DNA from: Clostridia bacterium
Lineage (GTDB): Bacteria; Bacillota; Peptococcia; Peptococcales; BICA1-8
Direction: 5' to 3'
NCBI GenBank assembly: GCA_012720075.1
Contig: JAAXZE010000126.1
Span: forward strand, 1 to 34,369
Length of the DNA: 34,369 nt
Below the pieces are notes generated by a model. That model did no database searches. It saw only the letters and a list, made by a program, of their open reading frames with translations, and had not been told where the DNA came from. Of the stretch, positions 17,918 to 30,554 are shown piece by piece. The stretch's first letter is position 1. Each line of letters begins with the position of its first letter. A program made the position numbers and the translations under genes.

Positions 17918-18334
17918 TTATTTTTGCCCAACCGCCTTTGCCAGCCAATCCTCAAAAGCCATTTCACGGATTAAATCCTGAACTTCATCTGAAGCTAAAT
18001 ATTTTTCCTTGTCGCATTCATTTAACAGCTGGTTTTTCAACTCATAAATCAACAAATTGGATTCCAGAAAGTTTTCCAGGGTGTCCAGGGTGATACCGTT
18101 TTCCTTAAGCCATTCTTCTGTAGCAGCAGAAGTTGTAAGGTTATTTATGATGCGGAAAGTATCACAAGCTTTCTGCAGTTCCTCATCACTGACAGATAAC
18201 CCCCTACTTTTTGCCTCTTCTACAGCCACTTTCCTTTTCACAACCTCCTCAAGAGCCTTGGCAAAACTACCGTCCAGTTTTGCGTAATCAACAACCTCAG
18301 CAACACTTACTTCCAATTCATCATAAAAAGACAT
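17918..18334 (-). CDS. SurA-N-like chaperone domain protein lacking the parvulin domain
   Basis: The 138 residues align by eye with the N-terminal half of the next upstream gene. Shared landmarks are an AEE/EEA helix, SVSDEELQKACDTFRIINNL against IASDEELQQAFDNFRKSQGL, EEWLKENGITLDTLENFLES against ELWMAERGISLDEMEKELEI, and a final amphipathic helix. It stops where the PPIase domain would begin. It has no signal peptide or membrane segment, so it should act in the cytoplasm. AAGGAGG precedes the start. Its place between the parvulin and the precursor gene suggests a chaperone or leader-binding role for the exported peptide, which is inference. The family's chaperone function is known from SurA and trigger-factor-like folds, not from this protein. 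Confidence 0.7.
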   Translation of the reverse strand: MSFYDELEVSVAEVVDYAKLDGSFAKALEEVVKRKVAVEEAKSRGLSVSDEELQKACDTFRIINNLTTSAATEEWLKENGITLDTLENFLESNLLIYELKNQLLNECDKEKYLASDEVQDLIREMAFEDWLAKAVGQK

Positions 18335-18401
18335 ATTTCTTCCTCCTTAATTAAAATTTTTACTTATTTTCATTTCGTTTTATGACAATTGGAACGGAAA
18401 A

Positions 18402-19145
18402 TTATTCTTCTGCCCATTCCAATTTTGCCTTCTGCTCCGCATCGGCTAAAAAGCGGTTGTAAAGAATGTTTCTGATTTCCTTCTCATTATTTTCATCAAG
18501 GCCGGCGGGATATAGGGCATTAACCATAATCAGGCTGTAGCCATCATCACCTTCAAAAGGACCCGCCACATCTCCCGGCTCAGCTCCGAAAACAGCGGAT
18601 GCAATATCGGCCCTTAGCTCAGGCCTTCTAATCATTCCTATGTAACCACCCTGTTTGGCCTTTTCGTCAATGGAATATTCCCGGGCCAGAACCATGAAAT
18701 CCGCTTCCTCTTCCTTTAACTGGGCCAGCAATTCCATGGCCACTTCCTGCTCTTTTACCGTCAGAATGTATAATTCGGCAGCATCCATGTTGGATTTGTT
18801 TTCGGCAAAATATCTCTCCACGGCTTCTTTGGGAATAGAATCCCTGATCTTTTCCGCCAGTATTTTGATTTCCAACTCCTTTTCCATTTCATCGAGAGAA
18901 ATCCCTCTCTCCGCCATCCAGAGCTCAGTATCTTTAGCGGCATATAATCCCTGACTTTTTCTAAAATTGTCAAATGCCTGCTGAAGCTCTTCATCACTGG
19001 CGATGATGTTTTTTTCAGCAGCATACTCTTCTATTACAACCTGCTCTATAAGCGGCAGGAGGACAGAAAATCTGCCGTCGGTCCTGACTTTCTGAGCCAA
19101 TTGCCGTAGGGAAATATCCTTTCCGTTAATGGATAATACTTTCAT
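18402..19145 (-). CDS. Cytoplasmic SurA/PpiC-type peptidyl-prolyl isomerase
   Basis: The 247 residues have a SurA-N-like helical domain (1-~115) and a parvulin domain (~120-215). The parvulin is recognisable by AELYILTVKEQEVAMELLAQ, DFMVLAREYSIDEKAKQGGY, IGMIRRPEL, SAVFGAEPGDVAGPFEGDDG and YSLIMVNAL. There is no signal peptide or lipobox, unlike PrsA and periplasmic SurA, so it should act inside the cell. AGGAGGTG lies upstream of ATG 19145, and the HlyD-like gene ends 16 bases before it. Parvulins beside HlyD and peptidase-containing ABC genes are known from bacteriocin-type clusters in other phyla, notably cyanobacteria. It probably helps keep or fold the precursor peptide before export. 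Confidence 0.85.
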   Translation of the reverse strand: MKVLSINGKDISLRQLAQKVRTDGRFSVLLPLIEQVVIEEYAAEKNIIASDEELQQAFDNFRKSQGLYAAKDTELWMAERGISLDEMEKELEIKILAEKIRDSIPKEAVERYFAENKSNMDAAELYILTVKEQEVAMELLAQLKEEEADFMVLAREYSIDEKAKQGGYIGMIRRPELRADIASAVFGAEPGDVAGPFEGDDGYSLIMVNALYPAGLDENNEKEIRNILYNRFLADAEQKAKLEWAEE

Positions 19146-19161
19146 TACTTATTGCACCTCC

Positions 19162-19839
19162 TCAAAATAGCAATTTATTTAAAAGCCTTGTCTTCCCAAT
19201 AATGATTTCCACACTAGCGGTAAGCCCCGGACGCAAAATAATATTTTTATCATCGGTTTTTTCCAGCTCAATTAGGGCAACCACCTCCATTTCCCGCCCT
19301 GGTACGGAGGAATTCTGGGTAATTAGCTCTTTTACCGTTCCGTTAAGCATGCCGAAATTTTGGTAGGGATAAGCATCCAGTCTTATTCGTACAGGCATTT
19401 TAGGCTTTACCCTGCTTAAATCCTGCTCCTTAAGGTAGGCCTTCACGCCTATGGGGTATGACGGGTAAATCAAAGCTATCCTTTCCCCTGCCCTTAACAT
19501 ATCGCCCTTAACCAATTCCCTCTGCCATATAATGGTCCCTTCACAAGGTGCCAGGAGTTCCCGCTTTTCAGTGACGGCAGTTCCCTGAATCAACTTCTCA
19601 TAAGTCAGTATCCTTTGCCCTGCATTTACTTCACCTATGGATTTCATAGAGACGGACTCCACAACCCCATCTTCAAGGGCGCAAAGTGCCTGAGGCTCGC
19701 TTAAAAAGCTTACATAGCCCATTCCCGGCACCGTAATTTCCACAGTCATAAGATAGGACCATCCAATTCCTGTTACGACAAGGGCAAGTATAATATAATA
19801 GAGTGCCGATGTATATGAAGGTAACTGTTGTTTATTCAA
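19162..19839 (-). CDS. Short HlyD-like membrane fusion/adaptor protein
   Basis: The 225 residues have one N-terminal membrane segment (SALYYIILALVVTGIGWSYL). A biotinyl-lipoyl-like half-motif pair follows (EDGVVESVSMKSIGEVNAGQ; APCEGTIIWQRELVKGDMLR), then a beta-barrel region (VKAYLKEQDLSRVKPKMPVR; LRPGLTASVEIIIG). The long coiled-coil hairpin of Gram-negative HlyD is missing, as expected for an adaptor that need not reach an outer-membrane channel. The start is TTG at 19839, eight bases after AGGAGG; no ATG is available upstream in frame. It lies 17 bases downstream of the exporter gene and should be its accessory subunit. Confidence 0.85.
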   Translation of the reverse strand: MNKQQLPSYTSALYYIILALVVTGIGWSYLMTVEITVPGMGYVSFLSEPQALCALEDGVVESVSMKSIGEVNAGQRILTYEKLIQGTAVTEKRELLAPCEGTIIWQRELVKGDMLRAGERIALIYPSYPIGVKAYLKEQDLSRVKPKMPVRIRLDAYPYQNFGMLNGTVKELITQNSSVPGREMEVVALIELEKTDDKNIILRPGLTASVEIIIGKTRLLNKLLF

Positions 19840-19856: not shown

Positions 19857-22800
19857 TCAGCCATGGAGCTGCTGGCTGTTCAAATAAAAATATAAACCCT
19901 TTTTCTCCATAAGCTCGTAATGAGTGCCTTTTTCAACAATCAACCCCTTGTCTAAAACTACAATAAGGTCAGCGTTGCGTATGGTGCTGAGCCTGTGGGC
20001 AATGACAATGGTAGTCCGGTCACGGAGTATATTATCAAGGTTTTGTTGAATAATCTTTTCCGATTCCGTATCCAAGGCGCTGGTTGCCTCATCGAGTATG
20101 AGTATTTTAGGCTTTGTGAAAAGAGCCCTGGCAATAGCTATACGCTGCCTCTGCCCTCCCGACAGGCTCATACCTCTCTCACCAATTATTGTTTCATATC
20201 CCAGCGGGAGTTCAGAAATAAACTCGTGGGCTCCGGCCAGCATTGCTGCTGTTATAACATCCTGCATAGGGGGATCCGATACTCCGAAGGCGATATTTTC
20301 TTTAATTGTACCGCTGAAAAGAAAATTATCCTGGAGTACAACACCAATCTGTCTTCTTAAGCTGCCGGAATCAATGTTCCTTATATCAATTCCGTCGATG
20401 AGAACCGTCCCTTCTGTAGGCCGGTGCAGCCTCAGTATAAGGTTTGCCAGGGTGGTTTTGCCGGAACCGCTTCGTCCAACCAGTGCCACTGTCTGGCCGG
20501 GGGCTATTTCAAGGTTTATATTCTGAAGCACATTTCTACCTTCCTTGCTGTAGCGGAAGGTCACATTTTTAAAGGTAATCTGGCCTTTGACGGGAGGCAT
20601 GATTATATTGGCAGTCTTATTCTGTTCCGGCTCTGCTTCCAGGACGTCATTTAATCTTTCAAGAGCGATGCGGGCTTCCTGTATTTTATCCCACAGCCCT
20701 ACAGTCCTCAGGACAGGGGCAATGACGCTTCCCAGAAGTGCGGTAAATGCCATAAGCTGGCCCACGGATATCTCCCCTGCCATCACCAGCCTGGCACCAA
20801 ACCAGAGTATAAGGGTAGTGCTGAGTGTCTGAAGTATCCTGCTTATTGAATCCGCAGCCGTAGCTATCATGGATGCCTTTTGCTGCAAGCCCATCGTCCT
20901 GGACAATTTCTCTTCCCATTTCCAGCGTACGGGTTTCTCTGCCGCCAGGCCTTTGACAGTGTTTATACCGCTGATGGATTCAACAATGTAAGACTGGGTT
21001 TCCGCCGCTGCCTGGAATGTTTCCCTGCTGACTTTTTTCATGTAAGGTGTGAATACCAAGGTCATTACTGCAAAAAGAGGTAGGAACAATACGGCCAACA
21101 GTGACAGCTTCCAGTTATAATAAAACATCAGGCACAAATAAACTATTATTGTGAAAAAATCCAGGATCACCGATAAGGTCGTTCCGGTAAGCAAATCTCT
21201 TATCTTGGAATTTTCATTGAACCTGGAGATTATGTCCCCTACCTTGCGGTCTTCAAAAAACTTCATAGGCAGGCCTAAAACATGGTTATAGAACTGGATC
21301 ATAAGGGAAGTGTCAATTTGCCTGGCAGCAAAAACAAGCATGTACTGACGCAGAGCTGCCGTTGCCACCTGGAACACAGCAATGATTATCATTCCGGCCA
21401 GCATTATATTCAGCATGGTGCTGTCTTGCTGTACAAGCACCTTATCAACAATATTCTGGGTGAAAATGGGAGATGCCAGTCCAAACAACTGCAGTATGAG
21501 GGAAGCGACAAGGATTCTTATAAGCAACTTGTTCTGAGCCTTTATGTAAGGGAAGAAACGGGCAAAAGTAGATTTTGAGGGTTCTACCAGATACAAATCG
21601 GGGGTAGGTTCTAAAAGAAGCAGGATTCCATCCCAGTCCTTTATAAACTCTTCCTTAGTATACTTCTTTAGCCCTATGGCAGGGTCGGCCACAACCACAG
21701 ATTTTTCATCAACCCGGTAAACCACAATATAATGATATCCCGCCCAATGAGCTATGGCAGGTAATGGAGAGCTTTTAAGCACCTCAAAATCACATCTTAT
21801 GGCTTTTGCTCTAAAGCCCAAACTTTCCGCAGTTTCAGCAAGGCTGAGGAGAGTAGCGCCCTCTCTGTTAACGTTAGCCATTTCCCTCAGCCGGTTAATA
21901 CTGATTTTTTGATTATAGTAGGAACAAATCATAGCCATTGAGGCAACTCCACAGTCCATTTGGCTCTGCTGGAGAAGCACAGGAAAGGTGCGCTTTCTTT
22001 TAGGAATGAACTTCTCTTCTTTTGCTTCCTCTTCAACCATCTCCGGAGCAACTTCTTTATATTCAACAAAATTTCCTGAGAGCCGGTAAGCTTCCGAAGC
22101 AGCTGAAGTTTCGTCAAGACCGGAGTCTTTTTCAATTCCCGAAAGCATTTCTCTTGCGCTTTTGCTGTAGCCGGCGGCTACTCCCAAAATAGCATTTTTA
22201 ATCTGGGGAATTGTGGTGATTATTTTTTCAAAATCCTGTTTGCTCAGGCGATAGGTTTTAACTTCAGTTTTTGCAATAACGCTGGCTGCCCTGGGTGCTC
22301 CTGTAAGCAGAGCCAGTTCACCAAAAAACTGTCCTTGATACAGTACGTTTAACAATTTTCGTCCGAGGCTTTCTTTTACAACCTCCACCTCTCCTGAACG
22401 GATTAAATAAAAAGCGTCCCCTTCTTCACCTTCCCGCACAATATAATCCCCAGGATTAAAGTCAACGCTGACGAAGCAGTCTAAAAAGCCTCTCAATTCT
22501 TTTGCATCCAGAGGAGAAAATACCGAACACTGCTTTATAAAATTTCTTAAGCTAATATCTGATAAATAATCTTCAAAATAGTGCTTCAACTCCAAATGTC
22601 TTTCAAGTATTTCAAGAAACCTTTTCCGGTCCAGTTTAAGTACAACCAGGTCTCCGCTGGCTCTTACGGTAAATTCATTGTTTTCCCCTGTCATCAGGCC
22701 TTGTTCCCCGAAATGGCCGCCTTTGGTCAGAGTGCCCAGGCTGGCTTCTTTGCCTTCGCTATCCAGACCCACAATGCGGGCTTTGCCTGAATATACAATA

Positions 22801-23006
22801 TAGAAGGCATCTCCCGGTTCTCCGGCCCTGCAGATAGTATTACCCAATTTATACTTCTCTACCTGAAAACCCGTAGCCAGGTTATCCAGTTCCTCTTCAG
22901 AAAGATAATTTGAAAATAAAGTCTTTTTTAACAGTTCTTTTATTTCTTCACTATTCAAATTCAATCCACCCTTTAATGTAAAATCCGGTGCCTCATGATG
23001 TTTCAC
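19857..23006 (-). CDS. Peptidase-containing ABC exporter with two N-terminal cNMP-binding domains
   Basis: The 1049 residues form one polypeptide with five parts. The first cyclic-nucleotide-binding domain (~25-148) has a degenerate phosphate cassette: Glu101 is present but Asn110 replaces the Arg. The second (~158-275) has an intact cassette, FFGELALLTGAPRAASV, with Glu230 and Arg239, very like protein kinase A. The C39 peptidase (~340-470) has Cys352 (QSQMDCGVAS), His425 (GYHYIVVY) and Asp441 (ADPA), which cuts double-glycine leaders. The membrane domain spans ~485-790. The ATPase has Walker A GRSGSGKT (844-851), LSGGQ (948-952), Walker B ILILDEA and His1004. It would cleave and export the 67-residue precursor under nucleotide control. 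GTG 23006 overlaps the CRP-like gene's stop by four bases; TTG 22958, with GGGTGG seven bases upstream, is an alternative start. Confidence 0.95.
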   Translation of the reverse strand: MKHHEAPDFTLKGGLNLNSEEIKELLKKTLFSNYLSEEELDNLATGFQVEKYKLGNTICRAGEPGDAFYIVYSGKARIVGLDSEGKEASLGTLTKGGHFGEQGLMTGENNEFTVRASGDLVVLKLDRKRFLEILERHLELKHYFEDYLSDISLRNFIKQCSVFSPLDAKELRGFLDCFVSVDFNPGDYIVREGEEGDAFYLIRSGEVEVVKESLGRKLLNVLYQGQFFGELALLTGAPRAASVIAKTEVKTYRLSKQDFEKIITTIPQIKNAILGVAAGYSKSAREMLSGIEKDSGLDETSAASEAYRLSGNFVEYKEVAPEMVEEEAKEEKFIPKRKRTFPVLLQQSQMDCGVASMAMICSYYNQKISINRLREMANVNREGATLLSLAETAESLGFRAKAIRCDFEVLKSSPLPAIAHWAGYHYIVVYRVDEKSVVVADPAIGLKKYTKEEFIKDWDGILLLLEPTPDLYLVEPSKSTFARFFPYIKAQNKLLIRILVASLILQLFGLASPIFTQNIVDKVLVQQDSTMLNIMLAGMIIIAVFQVATAALRQYMLVFAARQIDTSLMIQFYNHVLGLPMKFFEDRKVGDIISRFNENSKIRDLLTGTTLSVILDFFTIIVYLCLMFYYNWKLSLLAVLFLPLFAVMTLVFTPYMKKVSRETFQAAAETQSYIVESISGINTVKGLAAEKPVRWKWEEKLSRTMGLQQKASMIATAADSISRILQTLSTTLILWFGARLVMAGEISVGQLMAFTALLGSVIAPVLRTVGLWDKIQEARIALERLNDVLEAEPEQNKTANIIMPPVKGQITFKNVTFRYSKEGRNVLQNINLEIAPGQTVALVGRSGSGKTTLANLILRLHRPTEGTVLIDGIDIRNIDSGSLRRQIGVVLQDNFLFSGTIKENIAFGVSDPPMQDVITAAMLAGAHEFISELPLGYETIIGERGMSLSGGQRQRIAIARALFTKPKILILDEATSALDTESEKIIQQNLDNILRDRTTIVIAHRLSTIRNADLIVVLDKGLIVEKGTHYELMEKKGLYFYLNSQQLHG

Positions 23007-23683
23007 ATGTATAAGTTTGCTTCATTTTTTAGCCTTTCAACGTCACGGATTATCAAGTGCCTTTTTTCAAAGGTGATTATTCCCCGGTCTTCCAAATCGT
23101 TATAAATCTTGGTTACCGTCTCTCGTACAACACCGGCCAGTGCTGCAATGTCGCTGTGAGTAAGCCTTGGTTTTATGAGAATTCCCTTTTTATGCTTTAT
23201 AGAATAACCCTCTGCCAGGTAAAGCAATTGGCCGATTACCCTACCACGGGAAGAGTCGCCGGCAAGTTGGGTTATTTGTTTATTGGCCCACCGCAATCTT
23301 TCAGTTACTATCTCAGTGATTTTCAGCCCAAAGGCAGGAATTGTCAGCAAAAGCTCCTCAAAAAGGTGTTGAGGGATAAAATATGCTTCCGTTGGCTCAA
23401 TAACCTTAACCGATGCAGACCTGAGGTTTTGGCCGAAAGCTGCCATTTCCCCTATAACATCCCCCGGTTTCAGTATTGCCAGAGCCCTTTCCCTCCCGTT
23501 TTCAGTATTCTGATAAACCTTCACATAGCCTTCTGTAATAAAATAAACTCCATCAGCAGGATCACCTTCATTAAAAACAACTGTTCCACGTTTGAACCGC
23601 TTGCGTATTGCATTTTTTTCAATTTGCTGCTTCTGCTCTTTACTTAGGTGGTAGAAGGCATCATTTTTCAGGAAACTATGCAT
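23003..23683 (-). CDS. CRP/FNR-family transcriptional regulator, cAMP-type
   Basis: The 226 residues contain a cyclic-nucleotide-binding domain (~20-115) and a winged helix-turn-helix (~165-215). The phosphate cassette GDVIGEMAAFGQNLRSASV keeps the Glu (79) and Arg-Ser (88-89) that bind cAMP in CRP. The recognition helix reads VVRETVTKIYNDLEDRGII, retaining the RETV of CRP. There are no cysteines, so it is not an FNR-type iron-sulphur sensor. The gene is first in the export operon and overlaps the exporter by four bases, so it probably controls that operon, perhaps including itself. The start has GGGGAG six bases upstream. Cyclic-nucleotide sensing is inferred from residues only; c-di-GMP or another ligand is possible. 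Confidence 0.9.
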   Translation of the reverse strand: MHSFLKNDAFYHLSKEQKQQIEKNAIRKRFKRGTVVFNEGDPADGVYFITEGYVKVYQNTENGRERALAILKPGDVIGEMAAFGQNLRSASVKVIEPTEAYFIPQHLFEELLLTIPAFGLKITEIVTERLRWANKQITQLAGDSSRGRVIGQLLYLAEGYSIKHKKGILIKPRLTHSDIAALAGVVRETVTKIYNDLEDRGIITFEKRHLIIRDVERLKNEANLYM

Positions 23684-25262: not shown

Positions 25263-26156
25263 CTAGATTATTATGTTAAATAATAAACCGGCAATAAACA
25301 TAAACCCGAATTGAAAATGGAATTTAGCCGAGTTGGCCTCCAAACAAGTTAAGATGTTTTTATTACCCAGCTTGGAAATATGGGCATTTTTCAAATTCTC
25401 AGCCAGTTTGGGAATTAATAAAAAAGGTAAAATAGATGATACCGGCAGAATATCAAACATGATTAAAAACAAAAGAGAGGCAAATGCTGCTATGTTTAAT
25501 AAATAGTAAAAGGGAAAAGCCAAATTTTTACCTAATATTAAGGCCAGGGTTTTTATTCCTGCTTTTTGGTCAAAATCAATATCCCTTAGGTCATTGGCAT
25601 GCAGAATACCGGAAACAAGAAAACCAACCGGCAGGGATGCCCAAATAACATTTTCATTAAAGATGCCTGTTTGAACATAATGGCTTCCTAGAACCATTAA
25701 AGGACCCATTAGGAAAAAAACCAATAATGAGCCCAAACCTTGATATTTATAAGGTAATGGCCCGGCAGTATAGGTATAGCCCCCTAAAATACCGATAAGT
25801 CCTAAAAGCAATATCGGCCAGCCTCTTAAATAAACAAAATAGACTCCAAGGAGAGCCGCTGAACTAAAAGCTAAAATGCCGGCTCTTTTCATCTGTTCAG
25901 GTTTTAAAATATTTTTTACTAATTGAGGACAAGTTTGGGCGGATTCTATAGTATCAATCCCTGAAACAAAATCCCCATAGGTATTTATGAGATTAGTCCC
26001 ACAATGCAAAAGGGTTCCGCCAATTAAGGTTAAAAGAAAAAGACCCAAACTAAAAGTACCCTCAAAAGTATAGGCTAAAATAGCACCTAAAGTTACTGGA
26101 ATGGCGGATGCTGTAAAAGACCATGGTCTTAAAGCTAAAAACCATACTTTAACCAT
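25263..26156 (-). CDS. UbiA-family prenyltransferase, MenA-like
   Basis: The 297 residues form eight or nine membrane helices. The first Asp-rich motif reads NLINTYGDFVSGID (Asn58, Asp62, Asp68) and the second HANDLRDIDFDQKAGIKTLA, the pattern of 1,4-dihydroxy-2-naphthoate prenyltransferases that make demethylmenaquinone. No other menaquinone gene is in the window, so the aromatic acceptor could differ. It is the first gene of a two-gene unit with the CPBP protease downstream. The ATG at 26156 begins MVKVWFLALRPWSFTAS, the usual start of MenA-like proteins. Confidence 0.87.
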   Translation of the reverse strand: MVKVWFLALRPWSFTASAIPVTLGAILAYTFEGTFSLGLFLLTLIGGTLLHCGTNLINTYGDFVSGIDTIESAQTCPQLVKNILKPEQMKRAGILAFSSAALLGVYFVYLRGWPILLLGLIGILGGYTYTAGPLPYKYQGLGSLLVFFLMGPLMVLGSHYVQTGIFNENVIWASLPVGFLVSGILHANDLRDIDFDQKAGIKTLALILGKNLAFPFYYLLNIAAFASLLFLIMFDILPVSSILPFLLIPKLAENLKNAHISKLGNKNILTCLEANSAKFHFQFGFMFIAGLLFNIII

Positions 26157-29154: not shown

Positions 29155-29191
29155 TTAAAAAGGGTTGTTGGAATATCTTCCCAACAACCCT
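29155..29191 (-). terminator. Terminator of the ferredoxin/NapH-like/ArsR operon
   Basis: AGGGTTGTTGG (29161-29171) and CCAACAACCCT (29181-29191) form an 11-bp stem. On the minus strand the hairpin ends in CCCTTTTTAAATAG, a short U-tract. It lies about 20 bases after the regulator's stop codon. Confidence 0.88.
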
Positions 29192-29210
29192 ATTAGTCTA
29201 AAATTAACCC

Positions 29211-29498
29211 TTATTGGGTTTTACAATAGGTTTCCTTCAGTGTTTCAATAATTTTTTTAATCCTGTCATCGTTAATATGATAAACATTCTGAAGTCCATA
29301 TTTATTAGAACCTAAAATGCCGTGAGCCTTCAGCAGGGCTAAATTTTGAGACAAAGCCGATTGAGATATGGCAGGTATTTTTTCGTGTATTTCACTAACA
29401 TTCATTGGTTTTTCAATCAAGTGACACAAAATCATTAATCTATGTTGATTTGCCATTACTTTCAATAAATCGGCTATTTCTTTTGCTTGCCGTTCCAT
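29211..29498 (-). CDS. ArsR/SmtB-family repressor with BigR/SqrR-like cysteine pair
   Basis: The 95 residues form a winged helix-turn-helix: LLKVMANQHRLMILCHLIEK, recognition helix ISQSALSQNLALLKAHGIL, wing NKYGLQNVYHI. Two cysteines, Cys25 in the second helix and Cys92 near the C-terminus, are 67 residues apart. In the persulfide sensors SqrR and BigR the reactive pair sits at equivalent places, about 66 apart. There is no CxC metal site of the ArsR type. It is the last gene of a three-gene operon: the stop of the upstream iron-sulphur membrane protein is one base from this ATG. It probably represses that operon and releases on oxidised or sulfane-sulphur signals, by analogy. Confidence 0.85.
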   Translation of the reverse strand: MERQAKEIADLLKVMANQHRLMILCHLIEKPMNVSEIHEKIPAISQSALSQNLALLKAHGILGSNKYGLQNVYHINDDRIKKIIETLKETYCKTQ

Positions 29499-29499
29499 T

Positions 29500-30075
29500 T
29501 TATTTCACCTTCCCTCTATACTTCAGCATGCTTATCCCCTGAGTCATTGTACCCATGGGACAATAGACACACCATGAGCGGGGCTTGAATAAAAACATTG
29601 TTAAGAGTCCCAAAATTGTGGATGTAAGCATAACACTATAAAATCCAAAAGCAAACTGGGCAACCCAAGGTGAAACTGCGGCGGTATTTGTCCAGTTCCA
29701 GGGGAGTTGAATTGTCCATAAAAGTGTAACCACTTCTTGCAAATTATTAGTTCCGTTAAAAACTAAATAAGTAGAGAAAACCATTACCCCAAACATTGTC
29801 ATAAAAAATGTTAAAAAACCATAACGAAACCATTTGCTTCTTATAAAGGCAGGGATATTGCGATTTGCAGAAAGTTTCAGCCTGCCTCCTAAAAATTCAA
29901 ATAACTGACCTCTTCCACAATAACTGTTACAGTATATTTTACCCTTACCTACTATGGAGAGCAATAAGGGAGTAAGCATGCAAATCAGCCCTATCCAGGC
30001 GAAAAGGATATTAAAAAAGCCTAAAGTCAAATATACTGCAGAAAATATCCATAAATATTCATTCCACTTTTTCAT
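29500..30075 (-). CDS. NapH/CcoG-like membrane iron-sulphur protein
   Basis: The 191 residues form about five membrane helices with two cysteine motifs facing one side: IYCNSYCGRGQLFEFLG (Cys49, Cys53) and WCVYCPMGTMTQG (Cys169, Cys172). This is the 4Fe-4S_5-type membrane ferredoxin pattern seen in NapH, YccM and related electron-transfer subunits. The usual soluble ferredoxin tail is missing but is supplied by the separate ferredoxin gene just upstream, which overlaps this start by four bases (TTATGA). Together they look like a small membrane electron-transfer module. The electron donor and acceptor are unknown. Confidence 0.85.
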   Translation of the reverse strand: MKKWNEYLWIFSAVYLTLGFFNILFAWIGLICMLTPLLLSIVGKGKIYCNSYCGRGQLFEFLGGRLKLSANRNIPAFIRSKWFRYGFLTFFMTMFGVMVFSTYLVFNGTNNLQEVVTLLWTIQLPWNWTNTAAVSPWVAQFAFGFYSVMLTSTILGLLTMFLFKPRSWCVYCPMGTMTQGISMLKYRGKVK

Positions 30076-30269
30076 AATGCAGCCTCCTTTTGTATGACTT
30101 TAATTACCGAAGCAGGGCACACTTTCTGGCACTTTTTACATCCAATACAAAAATCTTCGTTAACATCCGCGTAGATTCCATGAAATATGGTTATAGCTTG
30201 GCGCGGACAGGCCTTTTTACAAACTCCACAAGCCACACATTCTGTTTGATTTACTTTTGCTTTTTTCAT
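30072..30269 (-). CDS. 2[4Fe-4S] ferredoxin
   Basis: The 65 residues hold two complete cluster motifs, CVACGVCKKACPRQA and CIGCKKCQKVCPASV, typical of bacterial 2[4Fe-4S] ferredoxins. It is first in the operon with the NapH-like protein and the ArsR regulator. AGGAGG lies seven bases before the ATG at 30269. Confidence 0.93.
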   Translation of the reverse strand: MKKAKVNQTECVACGVCKKACPRQAITIFHGIYADVNEDFCIGCKKCQKVCPASVIKVIQKEAAL

Positions 30270-30334
30270 GTTTGCCTCCTTTATTAGTCAACAATTTATT
30301 TTTAAAAACAGAATAATGCACAAAAGACAGTAAC

Positions 30335-30364
30335 TATATAAGTAATTTATAATATACTTATATA
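30335..30364. promoter_or_regulatory. Candidate ArsR-type operator upstream of the ferredoxin operon
   Basis: TATATAAGTA (30335-30344) and TACTTATATA (30355-30364) are a perfect 10-bp inverted repeat with a 10-base spacer. A second AT-rich dyad (TTTGAATATTCGAATA, 30375-30390) follows just upstream. They lie 66-120 bases before the ferredoxin ATG, the expected place for binding by the operon's own ArsR-family dimer. Confidence 0.55.
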
Positions 30365-30421
30365 AGATATTATATTTGAATATTCGAATATGTCAATGGA
30401 AACAGTGTATCTAACAAAAAT

Positions 30422-30458
30422 ACCCTCGACATACGTTCCATGAACATATATCGAGGGT
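30422..30458 (-). repeat. 38-nt-type dispersed hairpin element, copy 2
   Basis: ACCCTCGA (30422-30429) pairs with TCGAGGGT (30451-30458), and the pairing continues through ATA/TAT and GTTC/GAAC around a three-base loop. On the minus strand the two mismatches become U-G pairs, giving a ~17-bp RNA hairpin. It resembles the element at 23935-23972. It lies 97 bases after the stop of the zinc-ribbon gene. Confidence 0.7.
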
Positions 30459-30482
30459 TTAAGCCGATAAAGCATATTTTCC

Positions 30483-30548
30483 AGGACACAAGAACCTGCT
30501 CTGGGTCTTTTTATATCTGTTAAGACATAAGAACAGTCCCTTTGTCTA
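30483..30548. repeat. Diverged REP-like repeats
   Basis: Two tandem units, GGACACAAGAACCTGCTCTG (30484-30503) and AGACATAAGAACAGTCCCTT (30522-30541) followed by TGTCT, match one arm of the palindrome at 6790-6850 (ACACAAGAACCGTTCCCTTG). They sit between the zinc-ribbon gene and the 30422 hairpin. Confidence 0.55.
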
Positions 30549-30554
30549 TAAACT

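Follow-up and report, generated by a model that had tools for sequence, protein, structure and literature searches.

The minus strand of the 34,369-nucleotide stretch of Clostridia DNA analysed here (the window) carries, on reading of its ORFs, a three-gene unit encoding a ferredoxin, a NapH-like membrane protein and an ArsR-family regulator, in that order. The association raises the question of which signal the regulator answers to and what the electron-transfer proteins beside it do. An earlier note had taken the unit for a possible persulfide-sensing operon with a perfect operator dyad, and its naming of a ferredoxin and a NapH-like protein as the operon partners of the ArsR protein agrees with the ORFs and with the Fer4 and Fer4_5 matches given below. 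Within the literature searched (titles and the starts of abstracts) we found no paper on an ArsR–ferredoxin–NapH operon.

Operon layout and operator

The features of the unit are as follows, in the direction of transcription.

30422–30458, minus strand: intrinsic terminator of the gene preceding the operon (17-pair stem, 7 G-C)
30391–30396, minus strand: -35 hexamer TTGACA of the operon promoter (consensus scan)
30369–30374, minus strand: -10 hexamer TATAAT of the operon promoter (consensus scan)
30333–30364, minus strand: predicted operator, comprising the dyad at 30335–30364 and the family motif match at 30333–30358 (conservation, PWM)
30275–30279, minus strand: putative ribosome-binding site GGAGG of the ferredoxin gene (sequence reading)
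30072–30269, minus strand: ferredoxin, 65 aa (ORF; Fer4, 52.7 bits)
29500–30075, minus strand: NapH-like membrane protein, 191 aa (ORF; PF12801 Fer4_5)
29211–29498, minus strand: predicted ArsR-family repressor, 95 aa, with C25 and C92 (ORF, profile, fold)
29161–29191, minus strand: intrinsic terminator past the ArsR gene (13-pair stem, 6 G-C)

The genes are tightly packed: the ferredoxin and NapH-like frames overlap by 4 bp, with the NapH start inside the last four bases of the ferredoxin gene, and a 1 bp gap separates the NapH stop from the ArsR start. Because strong terminators lie on both sides, the operon is an isolated unit; terminator-like sites number five, as compared to 1.0 in shuffles of the same stretch. 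The promoter matches the sigma-A-type (sigma-70-type) consensus at 12 of 12 positions with a 16 bp spacer (30396–30369); as a count, promoter-like sites are not above chance (8 versus 6.8 in shuffles).

The inverted repeat TATATAAGTA-N10-TACTTATATA at 30335–30364 (arms 30335–30344 and 30355–30364) is the 10 bp perfect repeat that had been noticed upstream of the genes, and the 2.64-Mb assembly contains no second exact copy of it. When the intergenic region (30270–30554) was shuffled 2000 times with dinucleotides preserved, a perfect 10 bp inverted repeat with a loop of up to 20 bp arose in 1.85% of the shuffles, and 30 bp symmetry as good as at the dyad (13 or more of 15 pairs) in 0.1%. The dyad lies directly after the -10 hexamer, so that a bound dimer would cover the expected transcription start, which is predicted at about 30362, inside the operator.

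Relatives were collected by a scan with one genome per species, which gave at least 593 stretches (592 confirmed), and the best 80 loci were kept. An ArsR gene is linked in 25 of these 80 (directly downstream in 24 and divergently upstream in L056), and together with the window and L010 these make up the 27 ArsR-linked loci referred to throughout. L070, where no ferredoxin was found, was dropped from the operator counts, and L065, whose contig stops 20 bp past NapH, was counted as ArsR-minus. ArsR-linked loci have, upstream of the ferredoxin gene, a palindrome close to AGTATATTAGTAATTACTAATATACT; in most cases it lies some 17 bp past TTGACA, covering or abutting the -10. At a threshold of at least 19 of 26 letters it is present in 24 of the 27 ArsR-linked regions versus 2 of 54 others (best 80 of at least 593, plus the window and L010), counts that are not independent because the ArsR-linked loci are related; 60 shuffles of each ArsR-linked region never went beyond 18 letters. 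The ArsR-linked regions without a clear operator are L010, L086 and L040 (the last with an upstream region of 148 bp only), and the two matches among the 54 are L065 and L058, which has the motif and no ArsR gene nearby.

The 26 bp consensus was chosen from these same upstream regions, a circularity that leave-one-out scoring and the ArsR-minus control reduce and do not remove. With a leave-one-out PWM the ArsR-linked and other regions still separate, L039 being intermediate at 13.9 bits. A PWM of other species' operators, built without the window and without its nearest relative L038, ranks the window site first in the whole window at 26.0 bits, with 8.4 bits for an overlapping register of the site and 1.6 bits for the best site elsewhere. 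Mean information is 1.48 bits within the operator, 1.26 in the promoter-distal arm and 0.27 in the downstream flank, and since conservation drops outside the operator it reflects more than shared descent. The centre of the family operator is offset from that of the dyad by about 4 bp: typical family members have two overlapping AGTA-N10-TACT dyads 8 bp apart, of which the window operator keeps one, with longer arms. The exact AGTA-N10-TACT pair is present in 13 of the 27 ArsR-linked regions and 1 of the 54 others (same set from the best 80), and in 0.4% of shuffles. In the window's own genome, a pattern search allowing three mismatches finds one further weak site only (contig C25, 3 mismatches). 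The dyad is thus very probably the operator, as had been claimed, and the operon very probably autoregulated. A chance origin of the dyad was considered and rejected on the shuffles, the conservation and the PWM.

The ArsR regulator and its kin

The window ArsR has cysteines at residues 25 and 92 and no others. Both are invariant in all 27 linked ArsR homologues (25 from the best 80 of at least 593, the window and L010) and are the only cysteines in 25 of the 27, in an alignment with 21 invariant columns and many others that vary; in L041 and several other ArsRs a later methionine, aligned with the window start, was taken as the start. A profile of the 27 operon ArsRs searched against solved sequences has HlyU, YgaV, SqrR and BigR as its top seven matches (1e-23 to 3e-19), followed by NolR (5e-18) and by metal sensors from 5e-13. 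An AlphaFold model (pLDDT 90.4) places C25 in helix 18–27 and C92 at the end of helix 78–92; these are helices 2 and 5 (alpha-2/alpha-5), aligned with the cysteine pair of the reactive-sulfur (RSS) sensors, and Foldseek ranks 1 to 21 with this model are all HlyU, SqrR, BigR or YgaV. The earlier comparison of C25 and C92 to the dithiol switch of SqrR and BigR is therefore borne out in position, clade, fold and conservation.

The best NCBIfam model for the window ArsR is BigR, at 68.6 bits; because this is far under the 155-bit cut-off of the BigR equivalog (NF040642), we regard the protein as a member of the sensor clade and not as BigR itself. The known RSS sensors HlyU, SqrR, BigR, YgaV and PigS form one ArsR network cluster (cluster 4), defined by a cysteine pair in alpha-2 and alpha-5 (available text of PMC10509353); closeness to them was judged here by the profile search and Foldseek, not by that published network. 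As read from its sequence and model, the sensor is of a known kind, an RSS-sensing ArsR of the YgaV/SqrR/BigR/HlyU clade. Counting this ArsR, the BigR model finds five places in the genome at 1e-5 or better; the three others that were read, paralogues L131–L133, are without the cysteine pair. Among the closest ArsRs outside the operon in 299 genomes, L121 and L122 also lack the pair, and L120 is this ArsR again, with the start of the contig immediately ahead of its gene.

The ferredoxin–NapH pair and its surroundings

NapH has its own C-terminal 2[4Fe-4S] domain and sits in a nap gene cluster. The NapH-like protein here has hydrophobic segments and a Fer4_5 match (PF12801, 33.8 bits versus a cut-off of 22), with C49/C53 and C169/C172 invariant in 15 homologues, and it is without a C-terminal Fer4 or FMN-binding domain. 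The ferredoxin contains two CxxCxxCxxxC motifs (2[4Fe-4S]) and matches Fer4 at 52.7 bits. An ordinary Nap system was rejected, as the operon has no nap genes and the NapH-like protein no C-terminal Fer4. The ferredoxin gene precedes NapH in 79 of the best 80 loci (of at least 593), and in L041 the two read as a single 390-aa frame, a fusion that speaks for a physical ferredoxin–NapH unit. The AlphaFold model of the NapH-like protein is poor (pLDDT 62) and matched no solved structure in a PDB fold search, and its profile had no matches in a PDB sequence search, so that function is read from Fer4_5 and the cysteine motifs only. A role in electron transfer across the membrane is proposed for NapH-like proteins (available text of PMC8238504). 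The ferredoxin–NapH pair may work like NapH, without being classed as NapH.

Two other regions of the window are of note, both from sequence reading. A UbiA/MenA-like prenyltransferase gene (25263–26156) lies downstream of the operon, some 3 kb away; should menaquinone be produced, the NapH-like protein could have quinol as its partner. The segment 17918–23683 looks like a peptide export locus, with an ABC exporter (19857–23006) having peptidase-like and cyclic-nucleotide-binding-like N-terminal parts, a HlyD-like adaptor (19162–19839), a Crp-like gene (23003–23683) and two small adjoining parvulin-like genes (17918–19145).

In a search of sampled genomes with the NapH-like protein, 6 of 46 from the class and 42 of 398 from the phylum have a match, the weaker matches being longer or different Fer4_5 proteins. 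A Crp/Fnr-type palindrome, TGTGA...TCACA, is present about 80–145 bp before the ferredoxin gene in 21 of the 54 regions without ArsR and in none of the 27 ArsR-linked ones (best 80 of at least 593, plus the window and L010). The same machine is therefore connected to two or more kinds of sensor. Of the best 80 loci, 21 have a Crp-family gene within 3 kb, and four of these 21 are ArsR-linked. On the NapH tree, whose inner branches are mostly weak, the ArsR label requires 4 changes without L065, or 5 with L065 as ArsR-minus, versus a shuffled mean of 22, and the ArsR-linked loci span Bacillota, Spirochaetota and Synergistota. Alkalibaculum bacchi and Blautia schinkii are among the cultured, non-pathogenic bacteria that carry the ArsR form. 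We suggest that control has been exchanged among anaerobes while the ferredoxin–NapH machine was kept, with a Crp/Fnr-type regulator elsewhere. A Crp/Fnr-family gene adjoins the pair at L059:8981-9658, L078, L112 and 15 other loci, often with the TGTGA...TCACA palindrome before the ferredoxin gene, and its product might serve the module as a second sensor of thiols or redox state.

The neighbourhood was scanned for thioredoxin, thioredoxin reductase, rhodanese, CoA-disulfide-reductase-like (CoADR)/rhodanese fusion, CcdA-like and ferredoxin:thioredoxin reductase-like (FTR-like) genes. At 19 of the best 80 loci of at least 593, such thiol/persulfide genes are found no more than 3 kb from the pair (415 kb scanned); the more distant flanks of the same 80, 569 kb in all, have them at 4 loci. 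The contrast drawn earlier with the usual partners, a sulphur dioxygenase or SQR, stands for the window and for most relatives, although some of the latter adjoin rhodanese, CoADR/rhodanese fusion, thioredoxin or CcdA genes. A rhodanese or CoADR–rhodanese gene is within 3 kb in 4 of the 25 ArsR-linked loci among the best 80 (L045, L056, L072, L086), and none of the tested genes lies beside the operon in the window. The small number of ArsR-linked loci with thiol genes, and their absence from the window, is the weakest link in assigning thiol/persulfide reduction to the ferredoxin–NapH pair as its output, an assignment that we make tentatively.

In L112 (8685-9247) and L093 (8615-9172) the pair is followed by a small gene like the ferredoxin:thioredoxin reductase catalytic chain and then by thioredoxin, an arrangement suggestive of a ferredoxin-to-thioredoxin route in anaerobes; relative to the Pfam cut-off of 22 bits the FTR-like gene is below in L112 (17) and above in L093 (27.6). 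The window's own genome encodes elsewhere a CoADR/rhodanese fusion (G000:C33:20661-22304; L125/L127), a candidate persulfide reductase that at 489.7 bits is under the model cut-off of 578.8; the ArsR operator is absent from this locus (best match 15 of 26 letters).

Signal, mechanism and known systems

The ligand motifs of ArsR/SmtB metal sensors are an alpha-3 CxC and an alpha-5 D-x-H-x10-H-x2-H/E. Neither is present in any of the 27 linked ArsRs (from the best 80 of at least 593, plus the window and L010), in agreement with the earlier claim that a metal site is missing; the CxC motif is described in the available text of PMC10509353. That an ArsR/SmtB-type metal or metalloid sensor governs the electron-transfer pair could be read from the match to the NCBIfam HTH_metalloreg subfamily (66.8 versus a 55-bit cut-off), a model that spans the whole superfamily, but the two cysteines are the only ones and lie in helices 2 and 5, and metal sensors are far weaker matches to the operon-ArsR profile. 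This reading is exceedingly improbable, and we rejected it on the absent ligand motifs. It is also improbable, if somewhat less so, that the ArsR binds the dyad in response to haem or a metabolite, with the invariant cysteines as haem ligands or structural residues. YgaV and SqrR do bind haem as well, through the cysteine equivalent to C25 (available text of PMC9774250); however, both cysteines are fully conserved in an alignment where many other columns vary, which is what a two-thiol switch would lead one to expect.

A general thiol-redox or oxygen/peroxide switch, in which the pair would close to a plain disulfide and the ferredoxin–NapH proteins would guard anaerobes against air, is the strongest competitor, and still unlikely. 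The cysteine pair of BigR can form a disulfide, and BigR was at first taken for a redox sensor (available text of PMC5823870); the Crp/Fnr-type site at the ferredoxin–NapH pair in 21 of the 54 other loci (from the best 80 of at least 593) and the thioredoxin and thioredoxin reductase genes by the pair in other loci fit oxidative stress equally. HlyU, the nearest solved relative, nonetheless reacts with persulfides and not with H2O2 or GSSG, and the RSS-sensor network cluster is separate from the peroxide sensor RexT, whose cysteines are in alpha-3 (available text of PMC10509353). RSS are thus the probable signal.

From the computed layout, cysteine and operator conservation, clade, fold, ArsR link and constant ferredoxin–NapH pairing we infer an inducer, a mode of repression, an electron route and a substrate. 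Reduced ArsR would bind the palindrome at the -10/+1 region and block transcription; as persulfides or polysulfides rise, a disulfide or polysulfide would link C25 to C92, helices 2 and 5 would shift, and the protein would leave the DNA, with production of the ferredoxin, the NapH-like protein and ArsR. The first two may act together at the membrane as a single electron-transfer unit, in effect a NapH divided over two proteins, which in strict anaerobes could supply or balance low-potential electrons for thiol and persulfide reduction, a role for which aerobes would use an O2-dependent persulfide dioxygenase. We consider it fairly likely that the operon is an RSS-derepressed, self-regulated electron-transfer module under an ArsR of the YgaV/SqrR/BigR/HlyU clade. 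As a possible and rather speculative extension, it would be an O2-free answer to sulfur stress, in which a persulfide-sensing repressor admits ferredoxin–NapH electrons into thioredoxin, FTR, CcdA and CoADR/rhodanese, with Crp/Fnr wiring elsewhere. The persulfide-sensing ArsR regulons in the available text of the cited papers are proteobacterial and often tied to sulfide oxidation; here the same sensor and a conserved operator are coupled to ferredoxin/NapH across Clostridia, Spirochaetota and Synergistota. Through the ArsR link, a widespread membrane pair acquires a signal that can be put to the test, and a reductive RSS response that does not depend on oxygen is suggested for anaerobes of gut and sediment, some of them living amid much sulfide.

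BigR of Xylella and Agrobacterium resembles the window ArsR in fold, in its cysteines in helices 2 and 5 and in an operator at the -10 region (available text of PMC5823870), but it governs an O2-using sulfur dioxygenase/sulfurtransferase, and the window ArsR is under its equivalog cut-off. SqrR of Rhodobacter and HlyU of Vibrio share clade, fold and cysteine pair; their regulons differ from the operon here, HlyU is an activator, and the SqrR site is ATTC-N8-GAAT (available text of PMC9774250) as compared to AGTA-N10-TACT. NapH and NapH-like Fer4_5 proteins have in common with the window protein the Fer4_5 domain, hydrophobic segments and two cysteine pairs, whereas here a gene of its own, immediately ahead of the NapH-like one, encodes the ferredoxin. 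A further parallel in the regulator is YgaV of the autoregulated Escherichia coli ygaVP operon (PDB 3cuo), at 99 aa versus 95 aa: the cysteine spacing is 67 in both (C31/C98 and C25/C92), and the ILC and YC contexts are shared (ILCML and KNVYCP in YgaV, MILCHL and KETYCK here; available text of PMC9774250). The partner of YgaV is the rhodanese YgaP rather than a ferredoxin and a NapH-like protein, and the regulator gene is first in ygaVP and last here. What is new is thus the partners of the sensor, the operator family and the exchange of regulators, and the sensor itself is of a kind already known.
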